A program made the position numbers and the translations under genes. Source: Bacteroidota bacterium (lineage in GTDB: Bacteria > Bacteroidota > Bacteroidia > Sphingobacteriales > Sphingobacteriaceae). Taken from it: a stretch of 34,737 nucleotides of DNA. Below, in pieces: positions 3,731 through 31,174 of this stretch; positions within the stretch are counted from its first letter, which is position 1, and every line of letters starts with the position of its first letter. The DNA lies in contig JABDEQ010000019.1 in the NCBI GenBank assembly GCA_013286985.1, forward strand, positions 1 to 34,737, written 5' to 3'. A model generated the notes under the pieces. It was not told where the DNA came from and searched no databases. It worked only from the letters and a program-made list of their open reading frames with translations.

Positions 3731-3816
3731 TCGTCATTGAGTCATTGAGTCATTAAGTCATTTTTTTATCATAGTTGAAGAGACTAATGAAACAATGACC
3801 TAATGACTTAATGACA
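3731..3816. repeat. Inverted arms of 8-base tandem units between nuoH and nuoI
   Basis: The left arm is four copies of an 8-base unit (gtcattga, with small changes) at 3733-3764. The right arm is three copies of the complementary unit (taatgacc and variants) at 3793-3816. Bases 3749-3762 and 3802-3815 are a perfect 14-base inverted repeat with a 39-base loop. The structure fills nearly the whole gap between two genes of one complex, so it would be transcribed. No T-tract follows on the minus strand in the way a simple terminator needs. Confidence 0.85.
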
Positions 3817-3822
3817 AACTTA

Positions 3823-4896
3823 CTACATGAGCCAAAGTCTCCATATCCCCGATGCCAGCATGCAGGCAAAGGCCAGCGGCGTTAATACTTTCCAGCACAG
3901 GGCCATTAGTTTGTCTACGCGCATACGGGGCAAAGTCCATCGTATCCACATTTGTATAGCTATCAGCACAAGCGTTTTTAGCATAATCCATAAAATACCC
4001 CATCCGGCTCCCGTTGTCCAGTTAGCCAATTGTACTGCTCCAATGTTTGGCAGCGGGGTGTTCCAGGCTCCCAAAAATAAGATTACAGCCACCATCGATA
4101 CTAAAAACATCATGCTGTATTCGGCTAGAAAAACCAGCGCAAATCTTAGCCCGGTGTACTCGGTATGAAAACCGGCCACCAGTTCTGATTCCGCCTCCGG
4201 AATATCAAATGGCGCACGATTACTTTCGGCCAGCGAGGCTATAAAGTAAATTACAAAAGCTATCAGTAAATGTGGTGCTCTGAAAACGTTCCACGAGAAA
4301 AAGCCACCTATTTTAGTGACATCCCAAAAACCTGCAAATTTTATTTTTTCGGCCGCCAAAACACCCTGCTGCATGGCTATATCCTGCATGTTGAGCGTTT
4401 GGGCAATCATCACTACCGAAATAATGGCAAAACCCGCCGGAATCTCGTACGAAATAATCTGCGCTGCTGAACGCATTGCCCCCAGTATAGAATATTTATT
4501 GTTCGATCCCCAGCCGGCCATCAGTATGCCAAGCGTTTCGATAGATATAATGGCGAAAATATAGTAAAGCCCTAAATTCAATTTTGATGGCACCAGCCCC
4601 GGCGCCCAGGGCAGCGCGGCAAAACCCATATACACGGCAATAAAAATAATAGCCGGAGCCATAATAAACAGCACCTTATCGGCAGCAGTAGGGATAATCA
4701 GCTCTTTTTGCAGCATCTTTAAAATATCGGCAAAGGTTTGCAGTGTGCCGTATTTGCCCGTTTCTGTAGGGCCAAGTCTGTCCTGTATAAAAGCCGATAC
4801 TTTGCGCTCGGCATATACGCCAAACAGCGCAAACAGGGCCGAAAAGCCAAACAAGCCTGCAGCAATAAAGAAATATGTAATATAAAAATTCAACAC
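3823..4896 (-). CDS. nuoH: NADH-quinone oxidoreductase subunit H (complex I, quinone-binding membrane subunit)
   Basis: This subunit joins the membrane arm to the peripheral arm and helps form the quinone chamber. The 357-residue protein has about eight hydrophobic helices. It carries the family signature ESNRAPFDIPEAESELVAGF (residues 224-243) followed by HTEYTG, and an early QDRLGPTETGKYG loop. The predicted start is GTG, immediately followed by TTG; an ATG is not available in the right place. No nuoG lies upstream: the next gene is an unrelated carboxypeptidase on the opposite strand. The H-M block therefore starts its own transcription unit here. Confidence 0.96.
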   Translation of the reverse strand: MLNFYITYFFIAAGLFGFSALFALFGVYAERKVSAFIQDRLGPTETGKYGTLQTFADILKMLQKELIIPTAADKVLFIMAPAIIFIAVYMGFAALPWAPGLVPSKLNLGLYYIFAIISIETLGILMAGWGSNNKYSILGAMRSAAQIISYEIPAGFAIISVVMIAQTLNMQDIAMQQGVLAAEKIKFAGFWDVTKIGGFFSWNVFRAPHLLIAFVIYFIASLAESNRAPFDIPEAESELVAGFHTEYTGLRFALVFLAEYSMMFLVSMVAVILFLGAWNTPLPNIGAVQLANWTTGAGWGILWIMLKTLVLIAIQMWIRWTLPRMRVDKLMALCWKVLTPLAFACMLASGIWRLWLM

Positions 4897-5174
4897 GTTT
4901 ACTTAAGCTGCAAACTTAATGATTTTTGCGTTACGGAGTTGCCCTGTATTGAATACTTGACTAAGTTGATAGATGAAATTATTTTCTATTGAACAGCGGT
5001 ATTTAAAAACAAATACCTCACTAAATATTTTCTTTTGAGGGGATGCAGCTGCACCTACTCTCACAACTGGCCGCCACAGCTATATTTTTTTCATTAACTG
5101 TAATATTAGCACACATATTTTATCATATTAACGCAGCCATATGGTGATCCGGGTATTTCATCTATTTTGTTAAC
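4897..5174. other. Divergent intergenic region between nuoH and the S10 peptidase
   Basis: These 278 bases separate two genes pointing away from each other, so both promoters should lie here. On the minus strand a TAAGTTTG box (4911-4918) fits the Bacteroidota -7 consensus for nuoH. For the peptidase only the near-match TATTTTG at 5163-5169 is visible. A loose hairpin (CCTCA paired with TGAGG, about 5015-5040) and a GCAGCTGC palindrome just after it could be operator sites. No gene was found. Confidence 0.6.
4911..4918 (-). promoter_or_regulatory. Candidate -7 promoter box for the nuoH-M operon
   Basis: On the minus strand this reads TAAGTTTG, a full match to the Bacteroidota consensus TAnnTTTG. 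It lies 14 bases before the GTG start of nuoH, which would give a very short leader. No clear -33 TTG element is seen at the right distance, so confidence is modest. Confidence 0.35.
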
Positions 5175-6692
5175 ATGAAAAGAACTTTAATCCTTTTTTC
5201 TATTGCATTTTCTATAGCAAATACCGTTTTCGCCCAAACGGTCGCTCCTATTAAAAACATTAACCCGGTGACAAAAAGCCGGGTTTTGCAGGTTGATTCA
5301 TCGGTTGTTACTAAACACCAGGTTACCATAAAAGGCAAAACTATCCCTTATACCGCTACAGCAGGCAGCATTCCGGTTTGGGATGCAGACGGGCGCCCCG
5401 TTGCCGGTGTTTTTTATACTTATTTTGAGCGCGATGATATAACCGACAAATCAAACCGGCCATTGGTAATTTCTTTTAATGGCGGTCCGGGATCGCCATC
5501 GGCATGGATGGAGATTGGCTATACCGGGCCTGTTTTGCTCAATGTGGATGACGAGGGTTATCCCATTCAACCTTACGGCGTTAGCGACAATAAAAACTCC
5601 ATCCTTGATGTAGCCGATATTGTATACGTTGACCCTGTAAACACAGGTTATTCGAGAATTGTGGATAAGAATACGCCGGGTTCAAAGTTCTTTGGTGTAA
5701 ACGAGGACATCAAATATCTGGCTGCCTGGATCAATACTTTTGTTACCCGCAAAAACAGGTGGGCATCGCCTAAATTTTTAATTGGCGAAAGTTATGGCAC
5801 AAACCGCGTAGCCGGATTGGCCCTCGAACTTCAAAATGCACAGGGAATGTTTTTTAACGGCGTGGTACTGGTATCTACTACCGACCTCGGCATTGGGCGC
5901 GATGGCCCGCTGCAGGCGGCTTTAAAACTTCCTTATTTTACCGCTGCTGCCTGGTATCATGGTATGCTTTCGCCCGATTTGCAGCAAAAGGACCTGCTTG
6001 CCATATTGCCCGAAGTGGAAAATTTTACTTTAAATACGTTGGTACCTGCTTTTAGCAAAGGAGGTTTTATAGATGATACCACGAGGCAGCAACTGGCAAC
6101 AAAAATTGCGCATTACAGCGGCCTCCCGGAAAAATTGGTATTGGAAAATAATCTGGATGTATCACGTAACTTGTTTAGGAAAGCTTTGCTGCGCGATAAA
6201 GGTTATACCATTGGCCGGCTCGATTCCCGTTACAAGGGTATTGACCGCCAGACAGGTGGTGATGCACCCGAATACCCTGCCGAGGCGCTTGCCTGGATGC
6301 ATGCCTTTACACCGGCCATTAATATTTATTTGAGGAATAATTTGAACTACAAAACCGACCTTAAATACGATATGGCCGCCGATGTATCGCCCTGGGATGA
6401 TGATAACGATCATACCGGCGAAAACCTGCGCCAGGCCATTGCACAAAACCCAGCTCTGCATTTGCTCATACAATCGGGATATTTTGATGGTTCCTGCGAT
6501 TATTTCGATTCCAAATACACGCTTTGGCAACTCGATCCAAGTGGCAAGCTCAGAGATCGTTTAAAATGGGTGGGATATAAAAGCGGGCATATGATCTACA
6601 TGCGGAAAGATGTCATGCCACTTGCTACAGAAGACCTAAGGGAATTTATACAGGAATCTATACCTAAACCGGGCGCATCTGCTAAATATTAA
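5175..6692 (+). CDS. Secreted serine carboxypeptidase-like protein, peptidase family S10
   Basis: The 505-residue protein starts with a signal peptide (MKRTLILFSIAFSIANTVFA, then Q), so it is exported to the periplasm or beyond. It has the alpha/beta-hydrolase layout of S10 peptidases: an oxyanion-hole motif NGGPGSPS at 102-109, VDPVNTGYS at 152-160, the nucleophile Ser206 in GESYG, a likely acid Asp438 in SGYFDGSCDYF and the histidine His472 in KSGHMIY. All triad residues are present, so it is probably active, releasing C-terminal amino acids from peptides. It is transcribed alone, divergent from nuoH, and its stop lies only 3 bases from that of the gene opposite. The substrate is unknown. 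Confidence 0.9.
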   Translation: MKRTLILFSIAFSIANTVFAQTVAPIKNINPVTKSRVLQVDSSVVTKHQVTIKGKTIPYTATAGSIPVWDADGRPVAGVFYTYFERDDITDKSNRPLVISFNGGPGSPSAWMEIGYTGPVLLNVDDEGYPIQPYGVSDNKNSILDVADIVYVDPVNTGYSRIVDKNTPGSKFFGVNEDIKYLAAWINTFVTRKNRWASPKFLIGESYGTNRVAGLALELQNAQGMFFNGVVLVSTTDLGIGRDGPLQAALKLPYFTAAAWYHGMLSPDLQQKDLLAILPEVENFTLNTLVPAFSKGGFIDDTTRQQLATKIAHYSGLPEKLVLENNLDVSRNLFRKALLRDKGYTIGRLDSRYKGIDRQTGGDAPEYPAEALAWMHAFTPAINIYLRNNLNYKTDLKYDMAADVSPWDDDNDHTGENLRQAIAQNPALHLLIQSGYFDGSCDYFDSKYTLWQLDPSGKLRDRLKWVGYKSGHMIYMRKDVMPLATEDLREFIQESIPKPGASAKY

Positions 6693-6695
6693 CAG

Positions 6696-7352
6696 CTATT
6701 GCTCCGATACAGTAATAAATTGCCGCGAATACAAATCTTCCTGTAAAACCTTTATCATAAAGCGCGCTACATTTTGCCTGCTGATAGTTAAACGCGGCTT
6801 TGGCTGATTATTGGTGCTTATCTGCACTGTTTTGTTATTTAATGAATTGGTAAGCCCCACGGGCCGTACCGCCGTAAAATTTAAAGCCGATTGCTGCAGC
6901 AAAGCTTCCTGCAGTTCATGATCGCGGTAAGGATAGCCAACATTGCTATGATCTATAACCCATCTGAACCAGCCGGGAACATCCTTTTTGGTTTCGTTAA
7001 CACCCCAGGCGGTAGTTACAATCAGGCGCTTAATCTGTAAATCACCGGCCAGCTCAATAATATTTTTCATGGATGCCGACAGAAAGTCGGTTGGCGTCCG
7101 CAATGGTGCCCAGGGAAAGTCAGATGTGCGGGAAATATTAAGGGTACTTAAAATAGCTTCGCAGCCTTGCATGGCTTGCTGTAATACTGCTTTATCAATT
7201 GGCGTACCTTCAAACAAAGTAATAGCGGTTGAGTTATGCTGCCATTTACTTTTATCGCGCAGCAAAATGTTTATAGTATATCCTTGTTTAAGCGCCTCAT
7301 CAACCAAAAAAGCACCAGTTCTGCCAGTGCCTCCTAAAATCAGAATTTTCAT
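6696..7352 (-). CDS. NmrA/SDR-type NAD(P)-binding protein (atypical short-chain dehydrogenase)
   Basis: This 218-residue protein opens with a Rossmann dinucleotide motif, KILILGGTGRTGAFL (GGTGRTG at 7-13), typical of NmrA-like and atypical SDR proteins such as biliverdin-reductase-B relatives. The usual Tyr-x-x-x-Lys catalytic pair of classical SDRs is not obvious, so it may be a redox sensor or a reductase of unknown substrate. It converges with the S10 peptidase and is separated from murI by about 90 bases, which makes an independent transcript possible. The family is confident; the function is not. Confidence 0.85.
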   Translation of the reverse strand: MKILILGGTGRTGAFLVDEALKQGYTINILLRDKSKWQHNSTAITLFEGTPIDKAVLQQAMQGCEAILSTLNISRTSDFPWAPLRTPTDFLSASMKNIIELAGDLQIKRLIVTTAWGVNETKKDVPGWFRWVIDHSNVGYPYRDHELQEALLQQSALNFTAVRPVGLTNSLNNKTVQISTNNQPKPRLTISRQNVARFMIKVLQEDLYSRQFITVSEQ

Positions 7353-7443
7353 ATGATATGACCTTGTTTATTAGATAATTGCATCAAATATCCCATAAAA
7401 AAGCACAATACAAAGCCACAACAGTCAATATCAATATCTCCTG

Positions 7444-8277
7444 CTAAACCACCGCCGCATAGCCGGATTGCACCGGTGCCTCAAAAAATATTTCGGCATA
7501 GTGATCAAAATCGGCTGTATCATCGGTAGTGGTAAAAAATTGTTGTGTGCCATTCTTGGTAAGGCGCGTTTCCATTTCGGGGTGTCGTTGCAGGTAGTCG
7601 ACCAGGCTTTTGGCAACAATATCACCTTGTGCTACTATTTTTATATCGTGTGGTAAAAAGGCTTTTATTTGGGGCAGCAATAAAGGATAATGTGTGCAAG
7701 CCAGTAGCAATGTATCAATATTGGGCGATTGTGCCAGTATTTGCTCAAGGTACTTCTCCACAAAATAATCGGCGCCCGGTTTATCATGCTCGCCGTTTTC
7801 AATAATAGGTACCCAAAGCGGGCAAGCCTGCTGGTAAACCTTCAACTCCGGGAAAAAATGATCAATCTCTATCAGGTACGATCCCGACTGCACCGTTCCC
7901 CTGGTGCCCAGTACGCCAATTTCCGTGCTGCGGGTGTAATTACCTATCACTTCGGCAGTAGGGCGTATAACGCCTAATACACGCTTTGAGGGGTCTTCAA
8001 AAATCTTCAGGTCCTGTTGCTGTATAGTACGCAGCGCTTTGGCCGATGCCGTATTACAGGCCAGTATCACCAATTGGCAGCCCTGGTTAAACAGCCATTG
8101 CACACATTCCCAGGTGTACTGATGTATAGTTTGGAACGACCGGTTGCCATATGGCGCACGGGCAGTATCGCCAATGTACATATAATCATACTCCGGTAGT
8201 TCTTTTAAAATAGATTTGAAAACGGTTAGGCCGCCATAGCCCGAGTCAAATATCCCGATAGGTTGTTTGTTCAGCAT
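7444..8277 (-). CDS. murI: Glutamate racemase
   Basis: MurI converts L-glutamate to D-glutamate for peptidoglycan precursor synthesis in the cytoplasm. The 277-residue protein has the expected start IGIFDSGYGGLTV and the two catalytic cysteines in their conserved settings: Cys74 in LACNTASA and Cys194 in ACTHYPLL. The first aspartate motif (FDSG) and DTARAPYG are also present. The length is normal. It lies at the end of the uppS-bamA-ompH-ompH cluster, but a strong terminator between the last ompH gene and murI suggests that most murI transcription starts separately or depends on readthrough. Confidence 0.97.
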   Translation of the reverse strand: MLNKQPIGIFDSGYGGLTVFKSILKELPEYDYMYIGDTARAPYGNRSFQTIHQYTWECVQWLFNQGCQLVILACNTASAKALRTIQQQDLKIFEDPSKRVLGVIRPTAEVIGNYTRSTEIGVLGTRGTVQSGSYLIEIDHFFPELKVYQQACPLWVPIIENGEHDKPGADYFVEKYLEQILAQSPNIDTLLLACTHYPLLLPQIKAFLPHDIKIVAQGDIVAKSLVDYLQRHPEMETRLTKNGTQQFFTTTDDTADFDHYAEIFFEAPVQSGYAAVV

Positions 8278-8282
8278 TATAA

Positions 8283-8322
8283 CAAAAATAAAAAAAGCGC
8301 CCCGGTTATCGGCGCGCTTTTT
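8283..8322 (-). terminator. Rho-independent terminator after the ompH genes
   Basis: On the minus strand the stem AAAAAGCGC pairs with GCGCTTTTT around a short loop that itself contains CCG/CGG. It is followed by a long run of T broken by a single A. It lies about 20 bases after the stop of the second ompH-like gene and just before the murI start. The T-run also contains TATTTTTG (8283-8290), which matches the -7 promoter consensus for murI, but this may be coincidence. Confidence 0.8.
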
Positions 8323-8342
8323 AAATGTTTACAATTAAGTTA

Positions 8343-8858
8343 TTATTTTAAGCCTAATTTCAATTTCACTGCTGCTAACAGGTCGTCACCATCAGGAGAT
8401 ACGATCAAAGGAGAACCTTGTGATGAATCAAATACATAAGTGTAACCTTTTTCTTTAGCAACATCTGATACTGCGGCACGTGCTTTGTCAATTAATGGTT
8501 TTGAAAGCTCATTAGTTTTAGCATCAACTTTTTGCTGGGCATCATTTTGATAATCCTGCATACGTTTCTGGATATCCTGTAACTCAGCTTGTTTGGCAGT
8601 GCGGGCAGCATCTGTCATAGTAGCCTGGTTTTTTGTATAATCCTGACCTTTTGACTGCAATTCAGTGTTCATAGCAGTAAGCTGATCAATAAATTGTTTT
8701 TGATAAATGTCAACCTGCGACCTGATAGTTTTATACTCAGGCATTTGAGTAACTAATTGACCAAAATTAATATAACCAATTTTGGTTTGCGCTTTCGCAA
8801 AGTTGCCTACAAATAACATGCTTACTGCAACTAAAGCAACTTTTAATAATTTTTTCAT
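8343..8858 (-). CDS. OmpH/Skp-family periplasmic chaperone (second of two)
   Basis: The 171-residue protein has a signal peptide (MKKLLKVALVAVSMLFVGNFAKA, giving QTKIGYI) and a helical, Gln/Lys/Asp-rich middle part that would form the tentacle-like coiled coil of Skp. The opening KIGYINFGQLVTQMPEYK and the closing YVFDSSQG...DDLLAAV are typical of OmpH-family proteins. Skp proteins hold unfolded outer-membrane proteins in the periplasm and hand them to BamA. It follows a paralogue and bamA in the same direction and ends before a strong terminator. The 58-base gap to its paralogue has no obvious promoter. Confidence 0.92.
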   Translation of the reverse strand: MKKLLKVALVAVSMLFVGNFAKAQTKIGYINFGQLVTQMPEYKTIRSQVDIYQKQFIDQLTAMNTELQSKGQDYTKNQATMTDAARTAKQAELQDIQKRMQDYQNDAQQKVDAKTNELSKPLIDKARAAVSDVAKEKGYTYVFDSSQGSPLIVSPDGDDLLAAVKLKLGLK

Positions 8859-8916
8859 TTTTTTTTGTGTGTTGTTCTGTGTTTAAAAATAGTGGGATAA
8901 TTATAATTAAAAAAAT

Positions 8917-9447
8917 TTATTTTGCAAATGCTCCGGGCTTTAATCCTAGCCTGGTAATTACTTCATTACTTTTATCATAGCGCGGATTAGCATAAAGCAT
9001 AATCACTTCGCTGTTTTTGTCAAAAATCATATCCAGATCATCGCTTTCTGCAACAGCTTGTATCGCTTTTGACATTTTATCCTGTATCGGTTTAATGATG
9101 GCACTGCTGCGCTGTTCCAACTCCCCTCCCGGGCCAAATTTCTGATTCTGAAAATCCTTTGCCGATTTTTCTTTGTCGGCAATTTCCGCCTCGCGGCGTT
9201 TTTTCATATCGGGCGTCATCAACACCTGGTCGGCATTGTAGGCTTTATATAAGCGGTCAATCTCCTGGTACCGGCTATCAACTTCCTTTTGCCACTGAGC
9301 CGATAGCGCATTCAACTGTTTTTGTGCAGACGAATACTCAGGCATATGTTTCAATATGTAATCCGAGTCTACATAAGCAAACCGCTGTGCATTTGCCGCA
9401 ACAAATGTTAGTAACGTAAGCCCCAGTACTAAAATTATCCGCTTCAT
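8917..9447 (-). CDS. OmpH/Skp-family periplasmic chaperone (first of two)
   Basis: The 176-residue protein has a signal peptide (MKRIILVLGLTLLTFVAANA, giving QRFAYVD) and the OmpH layout: a beta-strand start (RFAYVDSDYILKHMPEYS), a long charged coiled coil and a C-terminal strand ending near DDLDMIFDKNSE. The gene lies 17 bases after bamA, which fits co-expression of the outer-membrane assembly pore and its chaperone. It is similar in plan to the next gene but clearly diverged, with shared MPEY and coiled-coil spacing, so the pair is an old tandem duplication rather than a recent one. Confidence 0.92.
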   Translation of the reverse strand: MKRIILVLGLTLLTFVAANAQRFAYVDSDYILKHMPEYSSAQKQLNALSAQWQKEVDSRYQEIDRLYKAYNADQVLMTPDMKKRREAEIADKEKSAKDFQNQKFGPGGELEQRSSAIIKPIQDKMSKAIQAVAESDDLDMIFDKNSEVIMLYANPRYDKSNEVITRLGLKPGAFAK

Positions 9448-9464
9448 TTATTTTTTTGCGTCCA

Positions 9465-12020: not shown

Positions 12021-12083
12021 TCGAATATTTTAGTGGGCTAAAAATAATTTATACAGTTGTTAAAAAGTGTTAAAAGAAAAAAT

Positions 12084-12993: not shown

Positions 12994-13040
12994 AAACTTA
13001 ATTGTAGTTTTTTTAGTATGCTGATAGAAAAGAAAATGTT

Positions 13041-15596: not shown

Positions 15597-15680
15597 GGTC
15601 ATTTGTCATTAGGTCATTTGTCATTGTTTAATAACCAACGGCCATCGACTATGGACTATGGACTATCGACTATGGTCTAT
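15597..15680. repeat. Two adjoining short-period repeats between the CBS gene and nadK
   Basis: Bases 15597-15626 are two 15-base copies of GGTCATTTGTCATTA that differ only in the last base. Bases 15648-15680 are a 7-base unit (ACTATGG) repeated four times with one change and a partial fifth copy. In addition, 15587-15595 (TTGGTTATT) and 15630-15638 (AATAACCAA) are a perfect 9-base inverted repeat enclosing the 15-base copies. The array touches the stop codon of the CBS gene. Confidence 0.85.
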
Positions 15681-17236: not shown

Positions 17237-17346
17237 GGTTGATTAAGTTGATTAGGAGAGTGGTTGATTAAATTGTATTCCATTCAACCTAATCCAACTC
17301 AGTTTAATCTGTTCAACTCAATCAACCTAATTCAACCCAATCAACC
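17237..17346. repeat. Inverted arms of 9-10-base tandem units between the yqeY-like gene and the hydrolase
   Basis: The left arm has GGTTGATTA at 17237-17245 and 17262-17270 with AGTTGATTA between them. The right arm (17284-17346) is about seven units of the complementary type (TCAACCTAA, TCAACCCAA and variants). The arms can pair into a long imperfect hairpin with a short loop around 17272-17283. The right arm ends 3 bases before the stop codon of the yqeY-like gene. The rest of the gap to the hydrolase (17108-17236) is AT-rich with no visible gene. Confidence 0.85.
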
Positions 17347-17799: not shown

Positions 17800-17808
17800 G
17801 TTTTTTAA

Positions 17809-17902
17809 ATTTCGGATTTAGGAAGTTCGATTTCGGAATTATTTTATTTGTTGCTTTTTAATTTCGGATTTCGAACGTTCTATTTCGGATTTAATTTTTT
17901 TA
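17809..17902. repeat. 21-base direct repeats between the SDR gene and the yqeY-like gene
   Basis: ATTTCGG occurs at 17809, 17830, 17861 and 17882, so there are two pairs, each spaced exactly 21 bases. The 21-base units starting at 17809 and 17861 agree over the first 11 bases and most of the rest. Unlike the other repeats of the window, the copies are in direct orientation. They lie immediately upstream of the yqeY-like start. Confidence 0.8.
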
Positions 17903-17921
17903 TTTATTATTTTTCGCTTTA

Positions 17922-22386: not shown

Positions 22387-22410
22387 ATCAAGATTCAGAA
22401 AAACTATAGG

Positions 22411-22899: not shown

Positions 22900-22918
22900 A
22901 AATTACATGTTTAAACAT

Positions 22919-22934
22919 CAAATTTACAAAAGTA
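22919..22934 (-). promoter_or_regulatory. Two adjacent -7 promoter boxes for the VOC gene
   Basis: On the minus strand TACTTTTG (22927-22934) is followed directly by TAAATTTG (22919-22926). Both fit TAnnTTTG. The VOC start lies 20 bases beyond. Which one is used cannot be told. Confidence 0.45.
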
Positions 22935-22976
22935 TTGAGCCGGTATTGTGTAATAATTGTAAAATAAATACGCTGG

Positions 22977-23180: not shown

Positions 23181-23284
23181 GCCTGTTAAATATTAAATAG
23201 CCATGCCAGAAAAAACCCGGCAAAGCTTTTTTGATAAAATGAATAAATTGGATTACCGCAATTGCGGTTAAGTGAAATGGGAGA

Positions 23285-23683: not shown

Positions 23684-23742
23684 GAAGCCAAGTTACAAAG
23701 AATAGTTAAATCTAAATGTTACAAATTCTCACATCTTACCTT

Positions 23743-23750
23743 TATCTTTG
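23743..23750 (+). promoter_or_regulatory. -7 promoter box that fixes the engB start
   Basis: TATCTTTG matches TAnnTTTG and lies 4 bases before the ATG at 23755. It falls inside the longer reading frame that begins at 23716, so the upstream ATG is unlikely to be used. The leader would be nearly absent. Confidence 0.55.
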
Positions 23751-23754
23751 CCAA

Positions 23755-24372
23755 ATGATCGTAAAATCAGCCGAATTTATTTGCAGTAATACCCAAATAT
23801 CAAAATTACCGCCTCCTGTAAAGGCAGAATATGCTTTCATAGGGCGGTCAAATGTGGGTAAATCGTCGCTTATAAATATGCTGGCCGGTAAAAAAGGACT
23901 GGCAAAAACATCGCAAACACCCGGTAAAACACAACTTATCAATCATTTTTTAATTAATGATAGCTGGTATATTGTTGATTTACCCGGATACGGATATGCC
24001 CGGGCCTCCAAAACTAAAAAGGCCGACTGGAACAAATTCATTCATACCTATTTAGATAAGCGCGAAAGCCTGCAATGTGTAATGGTGCTGATTGACAGCA
24101 GGCTGGAGCCACAAAAAATAGACCTGGAGTTTTGTAACTGGCTGGGCGAAAAAGGGCTGGCTTTTGTTTTGATATTTACCAAGGCCGATAAGCAATCAAG
24201 CGTTAAAACGGATCAATGCGTGGCGCAATTTAAAAAAGCGTTATCACAAACGTTTGATGAGTTTCCGCAGTATTTTATCACCTCGTCCGAAACGCAGTTA
24301 GGGCACGATGAGGTATTAAACTTTATAGGTGAAGTAAATAAGCATTTTGTAATACCAACCATAAACATTTAA
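23755..24372 (+). CDS. engB: Ribosome biogenesis GTP-binding protein EngB/YsxC
   Basis: EngB is an essential GTPase needed for 50S ribosomal subunit assembly. The 205-residue protein has G1 GRSNVGKSS (30-38), the G2 threonine in TSQTPGKTQ, G3 DLPGYG (75-80) and G4 TKAD (142-145), then an SSE-type G5. The start at 23755 gives MIVKSAEFIC, the usual N-terminus. The frame is open 13 codons further upstream, but that extension covers the promoter box. The OsmC gene follows 15 bases after the stop and is probably co-transcribed. Confidence 0.96.
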   Translation: MIVKSAEFICSNTQISKLPPPVKAEYAFIGRSNVGKSSLINMLAGKKGLAKTSQTPGKTQLINHFLINDSWYIVDLPGYGYARASKTKKADWNKFIHTYLDKRESLQCVMVLIDSRLEPQKIDLEFCNWLGEKGLAFVLIFTKADKQSSVKTDQCVAQFKKALSQTFDEFPQYFITSSETQLGHDEVLNFIGEVNKHFVIPTINI

Positions 24373-24387
24373 CCAAAAAACAAATCT

Positions 24388-24807
24388 ATGAAACGTACAG
24401 CGCATGCCCATTGGAACGGCACTTTAACCGAAGGAAAAGGTGAAATTACTACCCAAAGCACTATTTTAAACAAAACCCAGTATTCATTTAAAACTCGTTT
24501 TGCCGATGGTATCGGTACAAACCCCGAAGAGCTGTTAGCGGCTGCCCACGCAGGCTGTTTTACTATGGCTGTTGGTGCGGTTTTAACGCAGGCGGGTTTT
24601 ACACCAAATGATTTAAGCACCGATGCTATTTTAGATCTGGATATGGTTGCCCTTAGCGTTACCGGTATCCAACTTAATCTTACTGCATCAGCTATTGACG
24701 GTGTAAGCGAAGAAAAATTTAACGAAATTGCTGAAGGTGCAAAAGCAAATTGCATTATTTCAAAAGCACTAAGCGTGCCTATTACGCTAACTGTGAAATA
24801 TGCATAA
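24388..24807 (+). CDS. OsmC-family peroxiredoxin
   Basis: OsmC proteins reduce organic hydroperoxides with a pair of cysteines. The 139-residue protein has both: Cys57 in AAHAGCFTMAVGAVL and Cys122 in KANCIISKALSVPI. The start RTAHAHWNGTLTEGKGEI and NPEELLAAAHAGC are typical of the OsmC (not Ohr) branch. It follows engB closely and ends before a strong hairpin, so the two form one transcript. A complementary-strand frame over this gene is a shadow. Confidence 0.95.
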   Translation: MKRTAHAHWNGTLTEGKGEITTQSTILNKTQYSFKTRFADGIGTNPEELLAAAHAGCFTMAVGAVLTQAGFTPNDLSTDAILDLDMVALSVTGIQLNLTASAIDGVSEEKFNEIAEGAKANCIISKALSVPITLTVKYA

Positions 24808-24830
24808 TTTGTTGTAGCGAGAAAATTAAC

Positions 24831-24905
24831 AAAGTCCGGAAAATGGTAGTGTAAGTATCCTGATAGGATAAAAGCATATAAGGTTTTCCGGACTTTTCTT
24901 TTTAA
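24831..24905 (+). terminator. Nested hairpin terminator after the OsmC gene
   Basis: AAAGTCCGGAAAA (24831-24843) pairs perfectly over 13 bases with TTTTCCGGACTTT (24884-24896), followed by CTTTTT. Inside the 40-base loop lies a second perfect hairpin, TATCCT/AGGATA (24856-24861 with 24865-24870) around GAT. The outer stem with T-tract is a sound terminator; the inner hairpin is unusual. It also lies 25 bases beyond the histidine kinase stop on the other strand and could serve both. Confidence 0.75.
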
Positions 24906-24929
24906 AACATTCCGGTTCCTGCGCTCATG

Positions 24930-27194
24930 CTATGCCATCTCCAGCCTCGCCTCGGTCGACATAGCTGCTGGTATAGTGAATGAAAATTCGGTGCCCTCGC
25001 CGGGTTTGCTGGTTACCCATATTTTGCCACTACACTTTTCAACCAGGTCCTTGCAAAACAACATCCCCATACCCGTTCCCGATTCGTTGTTGGTACCTGT
25101 CTTACTGTTCACTTTCCCTTTAAACAGCTTATTCAGTTGATCTTCGCTCATACCTATACCAGTATCTTTCACGGTTATAATATGGCTATTATCATCCTGC
25201 TGACTGGCGATAATTTCAATAACATCATTATCGTTCGAAAACTTAATGGCATTGGTTATTAAATTGCGTATAACTATCCGTATCGAGTTCGGATCGGCCG
25301 ACGCAATCATATTGTCGGGCACGTGGTCAATCAATTTAATTCCTTTTGCAGCGGCCTGCTCCAGGTAGCTGTCCACTTCAAACGTTACAATATCTTTTAT
25401 ATAAAAACTCTTTGCCGAGCTTTCAAAATTCTCCATCTGGCTATTTATCCAAAATAACAAGGTATCCAAAAAGTCAGAAGTATACTCTAGCTTTTTCAAT
25501 ACACTAGGTATCATTTCGAGCAATTGCTGGTGGGTAATCGTATCATCCTGTAATAAACTGAACAAACCGCGCAGAGTGCTCAAAGGTGCCCGCAGATCGT
25601 GTGCTAAAACAGAAATCAGGCGGTCCTTTAAAATATTCAGGTCATTTAGCTTTTGAGCCTGATCATCCAGATCAGTTTTTTGCTGCAGCACTTCACGGTT
25701 CTTTTCTTCCAGCTTTAAATTGATGCCCTGTTGCTTGCGTTTTTGCCTGTAGTATACAATCGATACACTTATCATCGCTATGATGATCGTCAAAAAGATC
25801 AAATTAATCAGCTGCTGCTGTTTAAGACTTTGCTCGTATAAAAGTTCTTTTTCGTGTTGTTGTTGTGCCAACTGGTGCTGTTTGTTTGCAAAATCGTGCT
25901 CCAAATTGTATGAAGTTAGCTTTTGCATACTCTCGTTATTGTTCAGGCTATCTTTCAGATCAATGTATTGCCTCAACAATTTATAAGCCGCGTCGTATTG
26001 CCCTAAACCGGCAAGGGTTCTGTTCAATTGCAATGCAGCGTCCGAACGTACAGCCAGGTTGCCCAGCTTACTAGCCATTTGCTGGCCTTCAACAGCGTAC
26101 TTATAAGCGTTAACGTAATCGTGTTTCATGTTGTAAACCGTGGCAAAACCAATTAAAGTATAAGCCTGGTTGTAAACAATTTTATATTTGCGGGCTACCT
26201 GTAATGATATATCTAAATAATTTATAGCCTTGTCAAATTGTTTTTTATGTGCATAGCAAAGGCCCAGATCGGTATAAATGGAGCTCATCCCATCCTTATC
26301 ATCCTGGCGACGGGCAATCCGGTCAGATACATTTAAATAAGCTATAGCGCGGTCATAATTCTGTTGGGCAAGCCAAACCTCACCAATATTCTCATTTACA
26401 ATTCCGTAGCCTAATAAATCATTACTCGCGTAATATATGCCATAAGCCTTTTTGTAATACTCAAGTGCTTTAGGATACACCTGCATGCCATATAAAACAA
26501 AACCTATATCATTATAATTAGCCGCAGCAGCCAGTTTGTTATTTAATTTCAGGTCGATAAACAAAGCCTTATAATAATAATCAAGCGCTTTAGGTAACAG
26601 ACCCTCGTTAAAATATAATATGCCTATATTTTTATAGCTGTCGGCTTCATCCATTTCATTATGAAGCTTTCTGTTTAAATCAACCGCCATATTTAAATAG
26701 CGCAGTGCCAGCTTATACTGTGCCAGCAAATTGTACATGCGGCCACAAAGCGTATAACAGTTGCTTAAACCCTTATAATCTTTTATGTTTTTATAAATGA
26801 AAATTGCTTCGTTAAAATTTTCTATAGCTAACGGGTATTTGCCCTTAAAATAATTAGCATGCGCAATTTGCAATAAGCCGTTGGCTACACCTGCCCTGTA
26901 ATTAATTTTGCGCGAAAGATCAATACTTTTTTGCCCGTAATATAAGGTACTGTCGGGGTTTGATTCGAAGTAGTTAGCGGCTAAAGCGGTTAACCGGTTA
27001 ATGTAAAGGGTATCAGGGGCGGCTTCGTTTTTGGACGATGCCACCAAAGTTTTCAAACTATCAACACGTCCCCTGTTGATAATTGAAAAACCGCTAAAAG
27101 AAATTAATAGAAAAGAAATAGTTAAATAAATTCTCAAGATAATACGCCCCTTATTTTCAAATACTTGTTGTAACACACCTTGTGCAACAGGCAT
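24930..27194 (-). CDS. Tetratricopeptide-repeat sensor histidine kinase
   Basis: The predicted 754-residue protein has an N-terminal hydrophobic signal or anchor (about 17-41), about eight TPR motifs (about 70-415, with GILYFNEGLLPKALDYYYKA-type units), a coiled coil, a membrane helix (about 463-482, QQLINLIFLTIIIAMISVSI), then a HisKA domain with the phospho-accepting His532 in SVLAHDLRAP and an HATPase domain (N box RNLITNAIKFSN, G1 DTGIGM, G2 GTGMGM). The TPR part should lie in the periplasm and sense an unknown ligand or partner. No receiver or DNA-binding domain and no neighbouring response regulator is seen. The frame is open to 27254, but that start lies inside the rpsT terminator, so the ATG at 27194 or a later TTG is preferred. 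Confidence 0.9.
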   Translation of the reverse strand: MPVAQGVLQQVFENKGRIILRIYLTISFLLISFSGFSIINRGRVDSLKTLVASSKNEAAPDTLYINRLTALAANYFESNPDSTLYYGQKSIDLSRKINYRAGVANGLLQIAHANYFKGKYPLAIENFNEAIFIYKNIKDYKGLSNCYTLCGRMYNLLAQYKLALRYLNMAVDLNRKLHNEMDEADSYKNIGILYFNEGLLPKALDYYYKALFIDLKLNNKLAAAANYNDIGFVLYGMQVYPKALEYYKKAYGIYYASNDLLGYGIVNENIGEVWLAQQNYDRAIAYLNVSDRIARRQDDKDGMSSIYTDLGLCYAHKKQFDKAINYLDISLQVARKYKIVYNQAYTLIGFATVYNMKHDYVNAYKYAVEGQQMASKLGNLAVRSDAALQLNRTLAGLGQYDAAYKLLRQYIDLKDSLNNNESMQKLTSYNLEHDFANKQHQLAQQQHEKELLYEQSLKQQQLINLIFLTIIIAMISVSIVYYRQKRKQQGINLKLEEKNREVLQQKTDLDDQAQKLNDLNILKDRLISVLAHDLRAPLSTLRGLFSLLQDDTITHQQLLEMIPSVLKKLEYTSDFLDTLLFWINSQMENFESSAKSFYIKDIVTFEVDSYLEQAAAKGIKLIDHVPDNMIASADPNSIRIVIRNLITNAIKFSNDNDVIEIIASQQDDNSHIITVKDTGIGMSEDQLNKLFKGKVNSKTGTNNESGTGMGMLFCKDLVEKCSGKIWVTSKPGEGTEFSFTIPAAMSTEARLEMA

Positions 27195-27241
27195 TTGTAC
27201 GCAAGTAACATACAATTTTGTTTTGTCAAAATAAAAAAAAT

Positions 27242-27281
27242 AAAAAAAGCCCATTTCCTGTAAAGAAAACGGGCTTTTTAA
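27242..27281 (-). terminator. Rho-independent terminator after rpsT
   Basis: On the minus strand AAAAAGCCC (27279-27271) pairs with GGGCTTTTT (27252-27244) with TTTC/GAAA extending the stem, followed by a run of T broken by one A. It begins about 17 bases after the rpsT stop. The longest possible reading frame of the histidine kinase starts inside it. Confidence 0.85.
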
Positions 27282-27297
27282 AAGAATATGTTTTACC

Positions 27298-27552
27298 TTA
27301 TTTAAGGTTATTTACAAATTTGGTAAGCTTTGATTTATTATTCGAAGCTTTATTTTTATGAATAACGTTCTTTTTTGCTAAACGGTCAAGCATTGATATA
27401 ACCTTCGTTAAAAGCTCACTCGCCTCAGCTTTGCTGCTTGTGTTTCTTAATTTTTTGATGGCGTTCCTGGTGGTTTTAGCCTGGTACCTGTTACGTAAGC
27501 GCTTCGCAGCGTTTGCACGGATCCTTTTTAATGATGATTTATGATTTGCCAT
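27298..27552 (-). CDS. rpsT: Small ribosomal subunit protein bS20
   Basis: bS20 is a small, basic three-helix protein of the 30S subunit. The 84-residue product begins [20 protein letters not shown] and continues [17 protein letters not shown], the classic bS20 N-terminus, and ends with Lys-rich [12 protein letters not shown]. Length is normal. It has a good promoter with both -33 and -7 elements about 40-70 bases upstream and a strong terminator behind, so it is a single-gene transcript. Confidence 0.97.
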
Positions 27553-27592
27553 TGTATAGCTTTGTTATTCTTTCTATTATTTTTAAGGACTG

Positions 27593-27623
27593 CAAATATA
27601 CGATGGTTATTTCAATTTTCAAA
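27593..27623 (-). promoter_or_regulatory. Promoter of rpsT with both Bacteroidota elements
   Basis: On the minus strand TTTG (27623-27620) is followed 19 bases later by TATATTTG (27600-27593), exactly the TTTG-N19-TAnnTTTG pattern of Bacteroidota. Transcription would start near 27587, leaving a leader of about 35 bases. This is the best promoter seen in the window. Confidence 0.7.
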
Positions 27624-27658
27624 CACCTTTTTTAATTTAGTTTTTTGAGCCTTTGGAT

Positions 27659-27798
27659 GTTGTAAAGTTATGGGGTTTAAAGCTTGTAAAGTTAAATGCT
27701 GCCATAACCTGCTTCCGGTAAAACTTCGGTACATCAATCTTCAATTAAAATCTTTTTAATTATTATCTTCAAAAGTTTCAACTTTACAACGTTAAACC
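27659..27798. repeat. 24-base direct and inverted repeats between rpsT and the zinc phospholipase-like gene
   Basis: TTGTAAAGTTA occurs at 27660-27670 and again at 27684-27694 (spacing 24). GTTGTAAAGTT (27659-27669) is perfectly inverted at 27780-27790. The inverted copy is followed by a version of the GGTTTAA part. The arms flank about 85 bases that also contain a loose ATTAAAA/TTTTTAAT pair. It lies just upstream of the phospholipase-like gene and beyond the rpsT promoter. Confidence 0.8.
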
Positions 27799-27815
27799 TT
27801 ATAACAGTCCTGCTC

Positions 27816-28775
27816 ATGAAACAAGCATTCCGTATAATAACCGGTTTTATTTTGATCTTGCTATGCTCATCCTGGGGATTTTATGCGCATTTCCGCATTA
27901 ACAGGTTGGCGGTTTTCACCCTGCCTAAAGCAATGACAGGCTTTTACCGCGCCAATATCCAGTTTATAACAGATCATGCCATCAGCGCGGATAAACGACG
28001 CTATGTTGACTCAACCGAAGCGCCACGACATTTTTTTAATGCCGACCATTATGGAAAAAATCCGTTTGCTGCCGTTCCTCAGAACTGGGATGATGCTGCT
28101 ATTAAGTTTACGGCCGATACACTTATTAAATACGGTACCGTGCCGTGGACCATTCAATACAATTATTACCGGCTGGTTAAAGCATTTAAAGAGCATGATA
28201 CCACCGCTATATTAACTGCATCGGCTAATTTGGGCCATTATGTAGCCGATGCGCATGTTCCGCTGCATTTAACGCTTAATTATAACGGGCAGCTAACCAA
28301 CCAAACCGGCATACATGCCCTTTGGGAAAGCCGCATCCCTGAGTTATTTGGCGATCATTACAACTTGTATATTGGTAAGGCCCGTTATATTGAAAACCCA
28401 CTAGCCGAAGCCTTTAAAATATGCCGCAGCTCCTTTAAAAGCACCGATAGCGTATTGCGTTTTGAACGGATACTGAGTAAAAACTACCCGCCCGAAAAAA
28501 AATACGTTACCGAAAAACGGGGTAAAAGAGAAGTAACGGAATATTCCGAAGCTTATGCAAAAGCCTATCAAAACATGCTGAATAGCATGGTACAACGGCG
28601 TATGCGCTCGGCCATATTATCGGTGGGCAGTTTCTGGTACTCTGCCTGGGTTGATGCCGGGCAGCCGGATCTGAACAAGCTGATTGCCCAACCATTAACC
28701 GCCGATGAAACAGCAAAAGTTAAACAGGAAGAAACGGCCTTTAAAAACGGCAAAGTCAAGACGCCCGCAAAATAG
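27816..28775 (+). CDS. Exported zinc-dependent phospholipase C / S1-P1 nuclease-like protein
   Basis: The 319-residue protein has a signal peptide (ending LLCSS) with Trp20 right after the predicted cleavage site. In this family the free amino group of a mature N-terminal Trp binds zinc. The other ligands appear in order and at family spacing: His25, Asp65, His72, His141 and Asp145 (LGHYVADAH), His151, His167 and Glu171 (GIHALWE). W1-H6, D-x5-H and H-x3-D/E spacing match P1 nuclease, with Glu in the last position as in bacterial phospholipase C. Either phosphodiester or phospholipid cleavage is possible. The gene is convergent with the DedA gene, with 9 bases between stops. Confidence 0.88.
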   Translation: MKQAFRIITGFILILLCSSWGFYAHFRINRLAVFTLPKAMTGFYRANIQFITDHAISADKRRYVDSTEAPRHFFNADHYGKNPFAAVPQNWDDAAIKFTADTLIKYGTVPWTIQYNYYRLVKAFKEHDTTAILTASANLGHYVADAHVPLHLTLNYNGQLTNQTGIHALWESRIPELFGDHYNLYIGKARYIENPLAEAFKICRSSFKSTDSVLRFERILSKNYPPEKKYVTEKRGKREVTEYSEAYAKAYQNMLNSMVQRRMRSAILSVGSFWYSAWVDAGQPDLNKLIAQPLTADETAKVKQEETAFKNGKVKTPAK

Positions 28776-28798
28776 CAGGCTAACTTAAGCTGCCTGCT
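28774..28798. terminator. Hairpin shared by two convergent stop codons
   Basis: AGCAGGC (28774-28780) pairs with GCCTGCT (28792-28798) around an 11-base loop. The stem overlaps the end of both the phospholipase-like gene and the DedA gene. There is no T-tract, so termination by this hairpin alone is uncertain. Confidence 0.4.
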
Positions 28799-29438
28799 GC
28801 TTATTCATCCGGCTTTTTATGGCTGCAAAAATTGCAGGCAATACAGATACAGCTATAATTGCTATCCCTACCAATGCAAAATGAGCCTTAAAGAAAGGAA
28901 CATTGCCTAAAAAGTATCCGGCAAACAAAAACACAATGATCCAGGCGGTGCCCCCTATAATATTGTATAAGCTATATTTCACAAACGACATTTTGCTCAC
29001 CCCCGCCACAAAAGGCGCTATGGTACGTATAATAGGCATAAACCTGCTAAAAATCACAGCCAATGCACCATGCTTTTCAAAAAAAGCATGCGTTTGCAGG
29101 TAGTAATCGAGTTTTAGTATCTTATTTTCTTTCTTAAAAACCTTGGGGCCCAGATAGCTGCCAACAAGATAATTTACTGTATTGCCGGTAAAAGCAGCGG
29201 CAATTAAAATAAGGGTAAGCACATAAATGCTTAGTCCGGTAGTTCCGGCGGCAATTAAGGCACCGGCAGCAAATAACAGCGAGTCGCCGGGTAAAAATGG
29301 GGTAACTACAAAGCCTGTTTCGGCAAATATTATGGCAAATAATATTAAGTAGGTTAAAGCATGGTACTGGTTAATAATATCTTCCAGGTGCTTATCAATA
29401 TGTAAAATAAAATCAATGAGGCTTTTAATCAGTTCCAA
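28785..29438 (-). CDS. DedA/VTT-family membrane protein
   Basis: DedA proteins are inner-membrane proteins, some of which move lipid carriers such as undecaprenyl phosphate across the membrane. The 217-residue protein has the family signatures FAETGFVVTPFLPGDSLLFA and FSRFMPIIRTIAPFVAGVSK, with helices between and after them, and a short basic tail. The start appears to be TTG, supported by a TAATTTTG box 19 bases upstream. Convergence with the phospholipase-like gene is likely chance; a role in envelope lipid movement is inferred from the family only. Confidence 0.93.
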   Translation of the reverse strand: MELIKSLIDFILHIDKHLEDIINQYHALTYLILFAIIFAETGFVVTPFLPGDSLLFAAGALIAAGTTGLSIYVLTLILIAAAFTGNTVNYLVGSYLGPKVFKKENKILKLDYYLQTHAFFEKHGALAVIFSRFMPIIRTIAPFVAGVSKMSFVKYSLYNIIGGTAWIIVFLFAGYFLGNVPFFKAHFALVGIAIIAVSVLPAIFAAIKSRMNKQQAA

Positions 29439-29456
29439 GGCTTTTTAGTTTTGGGG

Positions 29457-29464
29457 CAAAATTA
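29457..29464 (-). promoter_or_regulatory. Candidate -7 promoter box for the DedA gene
   Basis: The minus strand reads TAATTTTG, matching TAnnTTTG, 19 bases before the TTG start of the DedA gene. This supports the unusual start codon. Confidence 0.45.
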
Positions 29465-29536
29465 TAAATTATATTCCGTAATCATCGGCGAATGGCAAAC
29501 CTATTCCACCTGACTGGCGACGTCCGGTTCAGTCAA

Positions 29537-30271
29537 CTATTTATTTGTAATTATTCCTGCATTAAACGCGGCCGAATCGGCACGGGTGGTATAACCATAG
29601 GCGTATATGGTATATAAGCGGCCATCCTGTACGGTTATGGAGGGTTGATCATTCAGTACGCCTGTAGTACCGGTGGTCATTAACTGGAAATCATAAGTAC
29701 CCACCGGAATTTCTTTAAAAGCGGTAGTGGTTAAATAAGGTACCGCGCCAAAAGCCAATGTGCCGTTAGCATACAAATCGAGCCCCGTAGTGCCGGTAGG
29801 CGAAGCATTTACAAACCTTATTTTACCCCTTCCTATTGCAGGCTCGCTTTCGACATTATCAACCGTAAAAATTTGCTGGGGCACACCGTTTACTGCCGAG
29901 CCTGTTAAAAATATAGTATATTTCAACCCAGTCTTCAAGATATCACCCCGCGAAAACAGCGTGGTACCTGAGTTACCGTTATAAATAAAAGGCCGGAACT
30001 GGTATGGTGTATCTGTCGAAGGCACATAAAAATACCCTGAACTAACGCCATAAATATATGGGCTTGTTAAACCGTTTACCTGGTTAAAATCAATATAAAG
30101 CGACAGATACCCCAAATTAGGACTTAAGTTTAAAATTTGATATTGAATATTAAGGCCTGTTGGGCTTGCAGCTCCCGATTTGCCGCACGACTGCATTGCC
30201 AAAATAAAAACCGGGCCAGCCATAACTAAACATAGCCAAATCCTGAAAGTATTTTTTATTTTAAATATCAT
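29537..30271 (-). CDS. DUF4397 lipoprotein (second of a tandem pair)
   Basis: The 244-residue protein has a signal ending LAMQSC, so the cysteine is probably lipidated and the protein anchored on the outer side of a membrane. Two beta-rich halves follow, each with the DUF4397 pattern of VRFVNASPTG..LDLYANGT, a strand with IPVGTYDFQLM and a closing YTIYAYGY. It ends AAFNAGIITNK, close to the SAFNIGVALNH end of its neighbour. The start at 30271 is chosen because AAAGGA precedes it at normal distance and overlaps the upstream stop; nine more codons are open upstream. The function is unknown. Confidence 0.85.
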   Translation of the reverse strand: MIFKIKNTFRIWLCLVMAGPVFILAMQSCGKSGAASPTGLNIQYQILNLSPNLGYLSLYIDFNQVNGLTSPYIYGVSSGYFYVPSTDTPYQFRPFIYNGNSGTTLFSRGDILKTGLKYTIFLTGSAVNGVPQQIFTVDNVESEPAIGRGKIRFVNASPTGTTGLDLYANGTLAFGAVPYLTTTAFKEIPVGTYDFQLMTTGTTGVLNDQPSITVQDGRLYTIYAYGYTTRADSAAFNAGIITNK

Positions 30272-30278
30272 TGATCCT

Positions 30279-30962
30279 TTAATGATTAAGTGCAACACCT
30301 ATATTAAATGCAGAATTGCCTTTTCCGTTTAACAAGCCCTTTGAAAAAATAGTATAGATACTACCCGCTTGAAAAGTTATTGTTGTATCAACTTTAGCTA
30401 TCGAAGACCCGGACTGAAAAACCTTTATTTCATTGGCACCACCAGGAAATTCCACAAAAGCACTTGACGTTTTAAAAACACTCGACTTAAAGCTAACTGA
30501 ACTACCGATGTAAACATCCAGGTTACCGGCATCAGAGGATACATTAACAAAACGAACCATGGTAGTATCAGGATGCAGGGTATCAATAGGCAATTCATCC
30601 TGCGTAGTTAACGTTTCACTTGCCGATTCGCCATAAACATAGGTAGAATAAAGAGAGCTATCCAATAGCTTTAATGGCAGATTAAACAAAACATTATAGA
30701 CGGCCGGGCCTGCCTTTTTAAATGAATAATTCTGAACACCTGCAGGCACCGTAAGGTAATAAGATTGCCCTGCCGGAAATAAACTTGAAGTATTATTTAA
30801 GCGGGTACCGTTCAAATAAAAATTCAAAGTGTCGGCAGTTGCGTTTACTATATTTAAACCAGTGGTAACTTTTTTTGCAAAAACCTCGTCATTATTTTTA
30901 CAGGAAACAAACACCACCATCATAGCAGTAATAACCCATAAAACCAAAAACCTTGTATTCAT
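30279..30962 (-). CDS. DUF4397 lipoprotein (first of a tandem pair)
   Basis: The 227-residue protein has a lipoprotein signal (VVFVSC, then KNNDEVF). It has two beta-rich DUF4397-type halves: GLNIVNATADTLNFYLNGT near the start and VRFVNVSSDAGNLDVYIGS at about 138-156. It is followed 7 bases later by a paralogue with the same two-part plan. DUF4397 proteins are surface or periplasmic beta-sandwich proteins of unknown role, common in Bacteroidota. Expression is separated from dnaN by a terminator. Confidence 0.87.
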   Translation of the reverse strand: MNTRFLVLWVITAMMVVFVSCKNNDEVFAKKVTTGLNIVNATADTLNFYLNGTRLNNTSSLFPAGQSYYLTVPAGVQNYSFKKAGPAVYNVLFNLPLKLLDSSLYSTYVYGESASETLTTQDELPIDTLHPDTTMVRFVNVSSDAGNLDVYIGSSVSFKSSVFKTSSAFVEFPGGANEIKVFQSGSSIAKVDTTITFQAGSIYTIFSKGLLNGKGNSAFNIGVALNH

Positions 30963-31015
30963 ATAAATAATTGCTATAATAACTGCGTATTATACGTTTT
31001 GTTATAGTACCGAAC

Positions 31016-31046
31016 AAAAAAGTCCGGTTTCGGGCCGGACTTTTGT
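31016..31046 (-). terminator. Rho-independent terminator after dnaN
   Basis: AAAAGTCCGG (31018-31027) pairs with CCGGACTTTT (31035-31044) around a 7-base loop, and on the minus strand TTTTTTG follows. The stem core AAGTCCGG/CCGGACTT is the same as in the terminator after the OsmC gene 6 kb away. Confidence 0.85.
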
Positions 31047-31174
31047 ATTAGTGATCAGCGATTAGTGGCTGGAGATAAGTCTTGACAGTTAAGTAAACAA
31101 TTTTAGTAAAACCGATGATCCTAATCTCCAATCATTAAAACCTGATCCCTGCTCATTAACCTCTAATCACTAAT
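31047..31174. repeat. Inverted arms of 14-base units after dnaN
   Basis: ATTAGTG occurs at 31047-31053 and 31061-31067 (spacing 14). The right arm (31111-31174) holds complementary variants (CTAATCTCC, AATCATTAA, TCATTAACC, AATCACTAAT). ATTAGTGAT (31047-31055) is perfectly inverted at 31166-31174, reaching the first base of the dnaN stop codon. The terminator hairpin follows directly on the minus strand. Confidence 0.8.

Follow-up and report, generated by a model that had tools for sequence, protein, structure and literature searches.

What are the short-period repeats scattered between the genes of a Bacteroidota contig, and where do they come from? The question is raised by the 34,737-nucleotide stretch analysed here, contig JABDEQ010000019.1 of assembly GCA_013286985.1 (the whole of which is called the window), in which a reading made from the letters alone, hereafter the sequence-only reading, had picked out six gaps with hairpins or repeats of short units (sites 1 to 6, Table 1). 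The UppS protein of the window is 80–86% identical to those of the first twelve loci found, eleven in named Mucilaginibacter and one in a Bacteroidetes metagenome-assembled genome (L008), and by this comparison the window is Mucilaginibacter-like. We consider it likely that the hairpins are intergenic cousins of the intervening sequences (IVSs) of 23S rRNA, present in the window as copies that lack an open reading frame (ORF), have lost one half or have decayed, and that the complete form of this seemingly selfish small element carries a four-helix-bundle protein gene of the S23/IVP family.

Arms of the hairpin type bracket S23/IVP genes in related genomes. Ten Mucilaginibacter-like genomes, with five to nine S23 genes each, gave 72 matches to PF05635, all above the family cut-off, and 70 of these were read. 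Flanking inverted arms exceeded the locus's own 20 shuffles around 67 of the 70 genes, the exceptions being L190, L192 and L207, and scored at least 28 around 65. Among the other genes of the synteny regions, from which three S23 genes had been set aside, 23 of 310 reached 28, the flank windows here extending 30 nt further towards the gene than those of the 70-gene count; with these longer windows, 28 of 29 S23 loci did so. Six representative S23 proteins of other loci matched PF05635 and TIGR02436 ('four helix bundle protein'), and the solved chains nearest by sequence to one of them were 2gsc and 2rld. A complete element has two inverted arms, mostly of about 20–45 nt and made, as judged by eye, of about 2–5 quasi-tandem units of 7–9 nt, and the loop between them carries a single S23/IVP gene. 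The literature searched, mostly non-subscription papers available in part, yielded no report of tandem-unit arms around S23 genes outside rRNA.

The repeats of the window appear to be members of the same arm families. When the sites were compared with a library of S23 arms, using five shuffles per site, five of them matched one or two arm classes clearly and site 5 marginally (Table 1; flanking genes named by Pfam), and the maximum among 13 of the 15 other window gaps scanned against the library was 29. The units probably differ by site because the elements belong to different arm families. The sequence-only reading had assigned each site its own unit, which holds in part, sites 1 and 2 having GTCATT in common. 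It had also argued that this was not copy-and-paste of one element; some 20 hand-grouped unit classes agree with it and rule out one repeat family copied everywhere, but the sites are not unrelated inventions, their units being those of S23 arm families. It offered no named class with these features; the 23S rRNA IVS is a named relative. Site 2 consists of two unlike halves, and site 4 is decayed or rearranged, with no hairpin of inverted arms.

Table 1. Repeat features of the window and the S23 arm classes that they match. Class scores are followed by the highest scores of shuffles in brackets; z refers to RNA folding in the gene sense.
Feature	Coordinates	Strand	Gap	Element and units	Class score	z	Gene setting
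Site 1	3731..3816	.	3731-3816	ORF-less hairpin, class G (GTCATT + 1-2 nt)	47 and 34 (<=25)	-5.64	Fills nuoH-nuoI junction (nuoH end 3823, nuoI start 3725, minus strand)
Site 2, gene-sense 5' half	15642..15680	-	15597-15680	Class B arm (ATAGTCC units)	43 at 15642-15670 (<=26)		Directly follows stop of CBS-domain gene
Site 2, gene-sense 3' half	15597..15625	-	15597-15680	Class G arm (AATGACC units); no complementarity to the class B half	41 at 15603-15625		Precedes NAD kinase start
Site 3	17237..17346	.	17237-17346	ORF-less hairpin, class E (GGTTGATTA units)	46 and 33 (<=26)	-5.62	YqeY-hydrolase junction; begins 3 nt past YqeY stop
Site 4	17803..17906	+	17809-17902	Two direct class K arm copies (ATTTCGG units), 52 bp apart, 79% alike	62 (<=28)	-1.71	Short-chain dehydrogenase-YqeY junction
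Site 5	27659..27805	.	27659-27798	Weak ORF-less hairpin, class M (GTTGTAAAG units)	31 and 28 (shuffles of this site <=24; 29 reached in other window gaps)	-1.46	Divergent gap, ribosomal protein S20 gene and S1/P1-nuclease-like gene
Site 6	31047..31174	.	31047-31174	ORF-less hairpin, class D (GTGATTAG/GAGATTAG units)	35 and 34 (<=29)	-3.51	dnaN-DUF4397 gene junction; extends from the stop of dnaN in the direction of a separate terminator-like repeat

Much of the sequence-only description of the six gaps was borne out. Short-period repeats were found at all six, and each of these gaps separates two ORFs that have protein-family matches. The repeats had been said often to touch a stop codon; five sites come 0–19 nt after one or, in the case of site 6, overlap it by 1 base, and site 5 is flanked by two start codons. 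Complementary arms had been reported for four sites, and stems of terminal inverted repeats, as in an IVS, were indeed found at sites 1, 3 and 6 and weakly at site 5, and were lacking at sites 2 and 4. Each whole gap was scored against 40 dinucleotide shuffles for stems and for tandem repeats (periods 6–30). No shuffle reached the stem score of sites 1, 3, 4 and 6, one reached that of site 5 and two that of site 2; the tandem score was reached by none at sites 1, 2 and 5, one at site 3, 10 at site 4 and 14 at site 6. These shuffles, with those of the relatives given below, rule out pure chance as the origin of the hairpins. Folded as RNA in the gene sense, site 2 had a z of -0.80 (Table 1 gives the others), and 0, 37, 0, 12, 12 and 1 of 200 shuffles folded as well as sites 1 to 6, respectively. 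A scan of the window against Rfam gave no match at the gathering score, and PF05635 was absent among the 35 window proteins scanned.

Among the remaining 15 window gaps, one (24808–24929) topped all 40 shuffles on the stem score and one (23684–23715) on the tandem score; the first separates convergent genes, contains a 13-nt inverted repeat without mismatch and is probably an ordinary terminator. Termination was rejected as the main explanation of the six sites, with site 1 lying inside the nuo operon and site 6 having its own terminator-like inverted repeat apart from the hairpin (31013–31049; arms of 15 nt that are 87% complementary, accompanied by runs of A and T). The dnaN gap of G003 and G001 retains the terminator-like repeat but not the hairpin.

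The relatives bear out the common architecture that had been proposed, and the comparison with shuffled sequence that the sequence-only reading had named as a check left the real gaps far ahead. At 13 loci (the twelve UppS loci and Mucilaginibacter polytrichastri), a stem score of at least 32 was reached by 34 of 171 gaps, including one that is a run of N, against 1.2 gaps per shuffle set, of which that N run makes up 1.0. In four genomes (2.0 Mb in all), 1335 gap tiles were scored: 264 had a stem score of at least 30, as against 6 in one shuffle set, and 71 exceeded both the stem and the tandem threshold, as against none when shuffled. Many of the relatives' stems belong to other families without tandem units: 64 hairpins out of 305 could be placed in an S23 arm class, and the other 241 in none.

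Across genomes, one and the same operon junction was shown to hold a full element, an empty one, one of another class or none. The junction of the CBS-domain and NAD kinase genes, which holds site 2, was tallied in 19 distinct Mucilaginibacter-like genomes including the window, with four genomes that were listed twice (L001=G001, L003=G003, L006=G006, L011=G011) counted once and with an arm library that includes the arms of G033, G001 and G006 from this very junction. Class A stood at both ends in five genomes, class F in three, half of a class F element in one, class G in one and class B in one; two were mixed (B/G in the window, A/G in G042), four had another insert of about 1 kb, and two were empty, with 3 and 6 bp. 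The S23/IVP ORF in the loop, which is optional in short IVSs, is absent from the window and is present at this junction in G033, G001 and G006, three of the class A and F cases. Outside the genus, 12 of 28 rows had junctions of 0–17 bp and 16 had junctions of 40–150 bp without a class match. At the nuoH–nuoI junction, in the window and 38 genomes, the same class was found at both ends in 9, the 5' arm only in 15, the 3' arm only in 2 and neither in 9, and 4 were short (4–19 bp). Units similar to those of site 3 are present at the corresponding junction of G042, G033, G003 and G001.

The repeat unit goes with the protein subfamily within Mucilaginibacter. Similarity of S23 proteins predicted similarity of arm units (Mantel r 0.66, 0 of 2000 permutations), and it continued to do so when 72 pairs sharing flanking-gene homology were removed (r 0.53, 0 of 5000); with those pairs left out, the fraction of shared 6-mers rose from 0.03 below 40% protein identity to 0.71 above 80%. 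The pairing, as far as sequence comparison goes, hints at a recognition code. Empty hairpins were likewise denser for classes with a resident S23 gene (2.65 per Mb) than for those without (0.98 per Mb), a difference equalled in 10 of 5000 and 70 of 5000 permutations under two schemes.

Complete elements abut genes on both sides and stand in sense orientation. In 61 of the 66 cases with a called gene on each side, both neighbours shared the strand of the S23 gene, and the outer arms began a median of 2 nt after the upstream gene and ended 3.5 nt before the downstream gene, genes having been called as longest ORFs, so that distances to stops are unbiased and those to start codons biased low. This same-strand placement may be due to selection on expression or be a feature of the insertion itself. 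The 52 empty class hairpins were distributed over 34 codirectional, 14 convergent and 4 divergent gaps, compared with 683, 189 and 228 of 1100 background gaps (Fisher p 0.014 for the scarcity in divergent gaps). G outnumbered C in the 5' arm of 64 of the 67 complete elements and 48 of the 52 empty ones, compared with 124 of 241 other hairpins. Inverted arms read alike on both strands, and this polarity is therefore a property of the element. It recurred in 10 of 10 plasmid-borne elements and in 18 of 22 from other Bacteroidota, but in only 10 of 16 rows of another gene family, GxxExxY; the G over C bias of S23 5' arms thus spans phyla.

The association extends beyond the genus. Thirteen of 18 other Bacteroidota genomes had S23 genes, with 77 matches in all; no match was present in G069, G070, G071, G075 and G081, which include Sphingobacterium and Parapedobacter. 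Of these, 30 loci were retrieved, 28 of them of sufficient length, and among the latter 22 had arms above their shuffles and 18 had arms scoring at least 28. S23 matches were also found in 25 plasmid records, of which 12 were fetched (11 cyanobacterial and one of Azospirillum), and 10 of the 11 cyanobacterial genes had arms above shuffles. The Azospirillum gene lies inside a 23S rRNA gene (RF02541), between arms with 7-nt units and a score, not compared with shuffles, of 47. Two of the cyanobacterial plasmid genes lie between CRISPR genes (L375 and L378; cas6 and cas4 in one case, cas10 and a Cmr3-family gene in the other), and a third (L373) has a ribonucleotide reductase gene on each side, both encoded on the opposite strand.

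Genes of two other families were also found between inverted arms. GxxExxY genes (TIGR04256; L356–L371, from 8 Mucilaginibacter genomes) had arms above their own 20 shuffles in 16 of 16 match rows, representing 14 genes, two of which gave two fragments each, and these arms differ in sequence from S23 arms, for example TGAACCATGATT. Composites at the nuoH–nuoI junction (L081–L093, L111–L135) join an S23-type arm after the stop to a GxxExxY-type arm before the start; a GxxExxY-type 3' arm scored at least 30 in 13 of 35 gaps and a 5' arm in none of the 35, among rows that share ancestry. The three small GIY-YIG genes covered, out of 44 matches, all lie between long inverted arms (G036:C1:325108, L242; G036:C1:50824, L228; G026:C1:284248, L280). 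In Sphingobacterium faecium, a 5-bp unit repeated in a long tandem array beside an ordinary hairpin (L016, 14722–15206) is unrelated to the class.

Among known systems, the 23S rRNA IVS is closest. Like the elements described here, it has a stem of inverted repeats, an S23 gene encoded in sense within the loop and short forms without an ORF, the Salmonella type being an instance according to the available part of one account (PMC2672173). Tandem heptamers are a further likeness: the accessible portion of another source describes them before the S23 gene of the Coxiella IVS, with an RNase III site at the first repeat (PMC4990558), and the arms of the Azospirillum IVS are of the same kind. The elements differ from IVSs in lying between protein genes, in the many classes per genome, in the matching of unit to S23 subfamily and, for the window copies, in having no S23 gene. 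The location inside 23S rRNA that defines an IVS is lacking at all six window sites, so these elements are a variant beside the classical IVS. The TAACTGA heptamer repeats of Beggiatoaceae, Cyanobacteria and some Bacteroidetes resemble them in their intergenic 7-nt tandem units and overlapping taxa; they are described, in the text available, as one main unit in direct repeats, mostly near start codons and with one inverted case in the main genome, and that text does not mention a link to S23 (PMC4679880).

Several observations weigh against the derivation from S23-bearing elements. The 20 arm classes were grouped by hand, and a resident S23 gene is dispensable, with classes E and L found where there is none. 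Part of the correlation between unit and protein is explained by linkage, arm and ORF travelling together, and the pairing does not reach significance in comparisons across genera (r 0.028, 708 of 5000), although the closest pair (L330–L156, 69% identity) has the best-matching arms of 67. The two arms of one element matched each other better than those of other elements in the class, though slightly (46.0 compared with 42.3, p 0.03), and were best partners in 26 of 65 cases. Other hairpins were as scarce in divergent gaps (21 of 235) as the empty class hairpins. The loops gave little sign, on sequence comparison, of recent copying: loops of empty hairpins of the same class resembled each other, on average, about as much as shuffled ones did (97 pairs, 12.9 against 12.3), except for three pairs of at least 24 (the best 35) where shuffles gave none, and 41 empty loops showed no average likeness to the interior of complete elements (21.1 against 20.3), except for two with scores of 47 and 36. 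This would fit either old copies whose loops decay fast or arms that are written around local sequence. No target-site duplication could be read from the empty junctions of 0–17 bp.

Some of these points give room to a purely local origin, in which replication slippage makes the units and template switching in imperfect palindromes makes the arms, independently in each gap and without S23. Slippage and quasi-palindrome correction would yield tandem units and imperfect arms, just as observed, and the mostly unrelated loops and the slight advantage of an element's own arms fit as well. However, the units are those of S23-flanking arms and recur at different loci in several genomes, which a duplication-and-inversion confined to the gap, as the sequence-only reading had considered, leaves unexplained. 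The hairpins also occupy junctions that measure 0–17 bp in the 12 genomes outside the genus and 3–6 bp in two inside it, and class-specific arms with a G over C polarity would be unexpected. We regard this origin as improbable.

A second possibility, to which we give equally low credence, is that the hairpins are selected RNA devices, kept for mRNA processing, differential stability or termination, with the S23 gene as a passenger or a trans-acting processing factor. Strong gene-sense stems at sites 1, 3 and 6 favour it, as does the rarity of empty class hairpins in divergent gaps (4 of 52 compared with 228 of 1100), shared by other hairpins. Yet the same junction is nearly empty (3–19 bp) in some congeners or close relatives and holds unlike halves in others, its class changes between species, and site 6 has a separate terminator-like repeat that is retained where the hairpin is missing.

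Elements like repetitive extragenic palindromes (REPs) or miniature inverted-repeat transposable elements (MITEs), mobilised by an ordinary transposase of the tyrosine (RAYT) or DDE type that is encoded at another place in the genome, are very unlikely: short intergenic inverted repeats with a coding partner do recall REP/RAYT systems (REPtrons), TIRtrons and MITEs, but in the part available of the source on these systems the palindromes flank a tyrosine (HUH) transposase and carry a GTAG or CGTC tag, with no mention of tandem-unit arms (PMC3733652), whereas here the gene between matching arms is S23/IVP, many arm classes coexist per genome, and none of six S23 proteins scanned matched a transposase, no survey of transposase genes having been made. 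GTAG does stand beside some hairpins. Empty hairpins have arms in common with the coding element, but their loops are mostly non-homologous to one another and to the coding interior, which weakens simple MITE copying.

If the hairpins are relatives of the IVS that derive from S23-bearing elements, the S23 protein of each subfamily would recognise the units in its own arms and act on full and empty copies alike. By analogy with rRNA, the hairpin in an mRNA may be cut by RNase III, which would separate the two flanking genes in the message with little penalty. The element would spread and persist mostly at stop–start junctions. For movement we lean towards an RNA or single-strand hairpin intermediate served in trans by reverse transcriptase or repair enzymes. 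The reverse-transcribed form is suggested because S23 is reported, in the accessible part of one paper, to resemble Avd, the reverse transcriptase partner of diversity-generating retroelements (PMC10053308); as described there, the likeness is to PF05635, and Avd differs in acting with a reverse transcriptase and TR/VR repeats. For the IVS itself, the available text of PMC4990558 lists movement by the ORF product only as theory.

A bolder version, which we offer as speculation that may well fail, is that S23/IVP proteins confer specificity on a large and so far unrecognised group of mobile hairpins that have no known transposase or nuclease. Each subfamily would recognise an arm word of 7–9 nt peculiar to it, and full and empty copies would be moved in trans through an RNA or single-strand hairpin, with the stop–start junctions of operons as targets. 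The IVSs of rRNA would be copies that landed in rRNA, and small nuclease genes (GxxExxY and GIY-YIG) would run parallel hairpin elements of like design.

The function and origin of IVSs are called unclear in the portion of the literature available to us (PMC4990558). Given five to nine S23 genes per genome, about 20 unit classes and empty copies that lie away from rRNA, both become testable. If the relationship proposed here is true, a part of the puzzling intergenic short repeats in Bacteroidota, and possibly in Cyanobacteria, would be explained.

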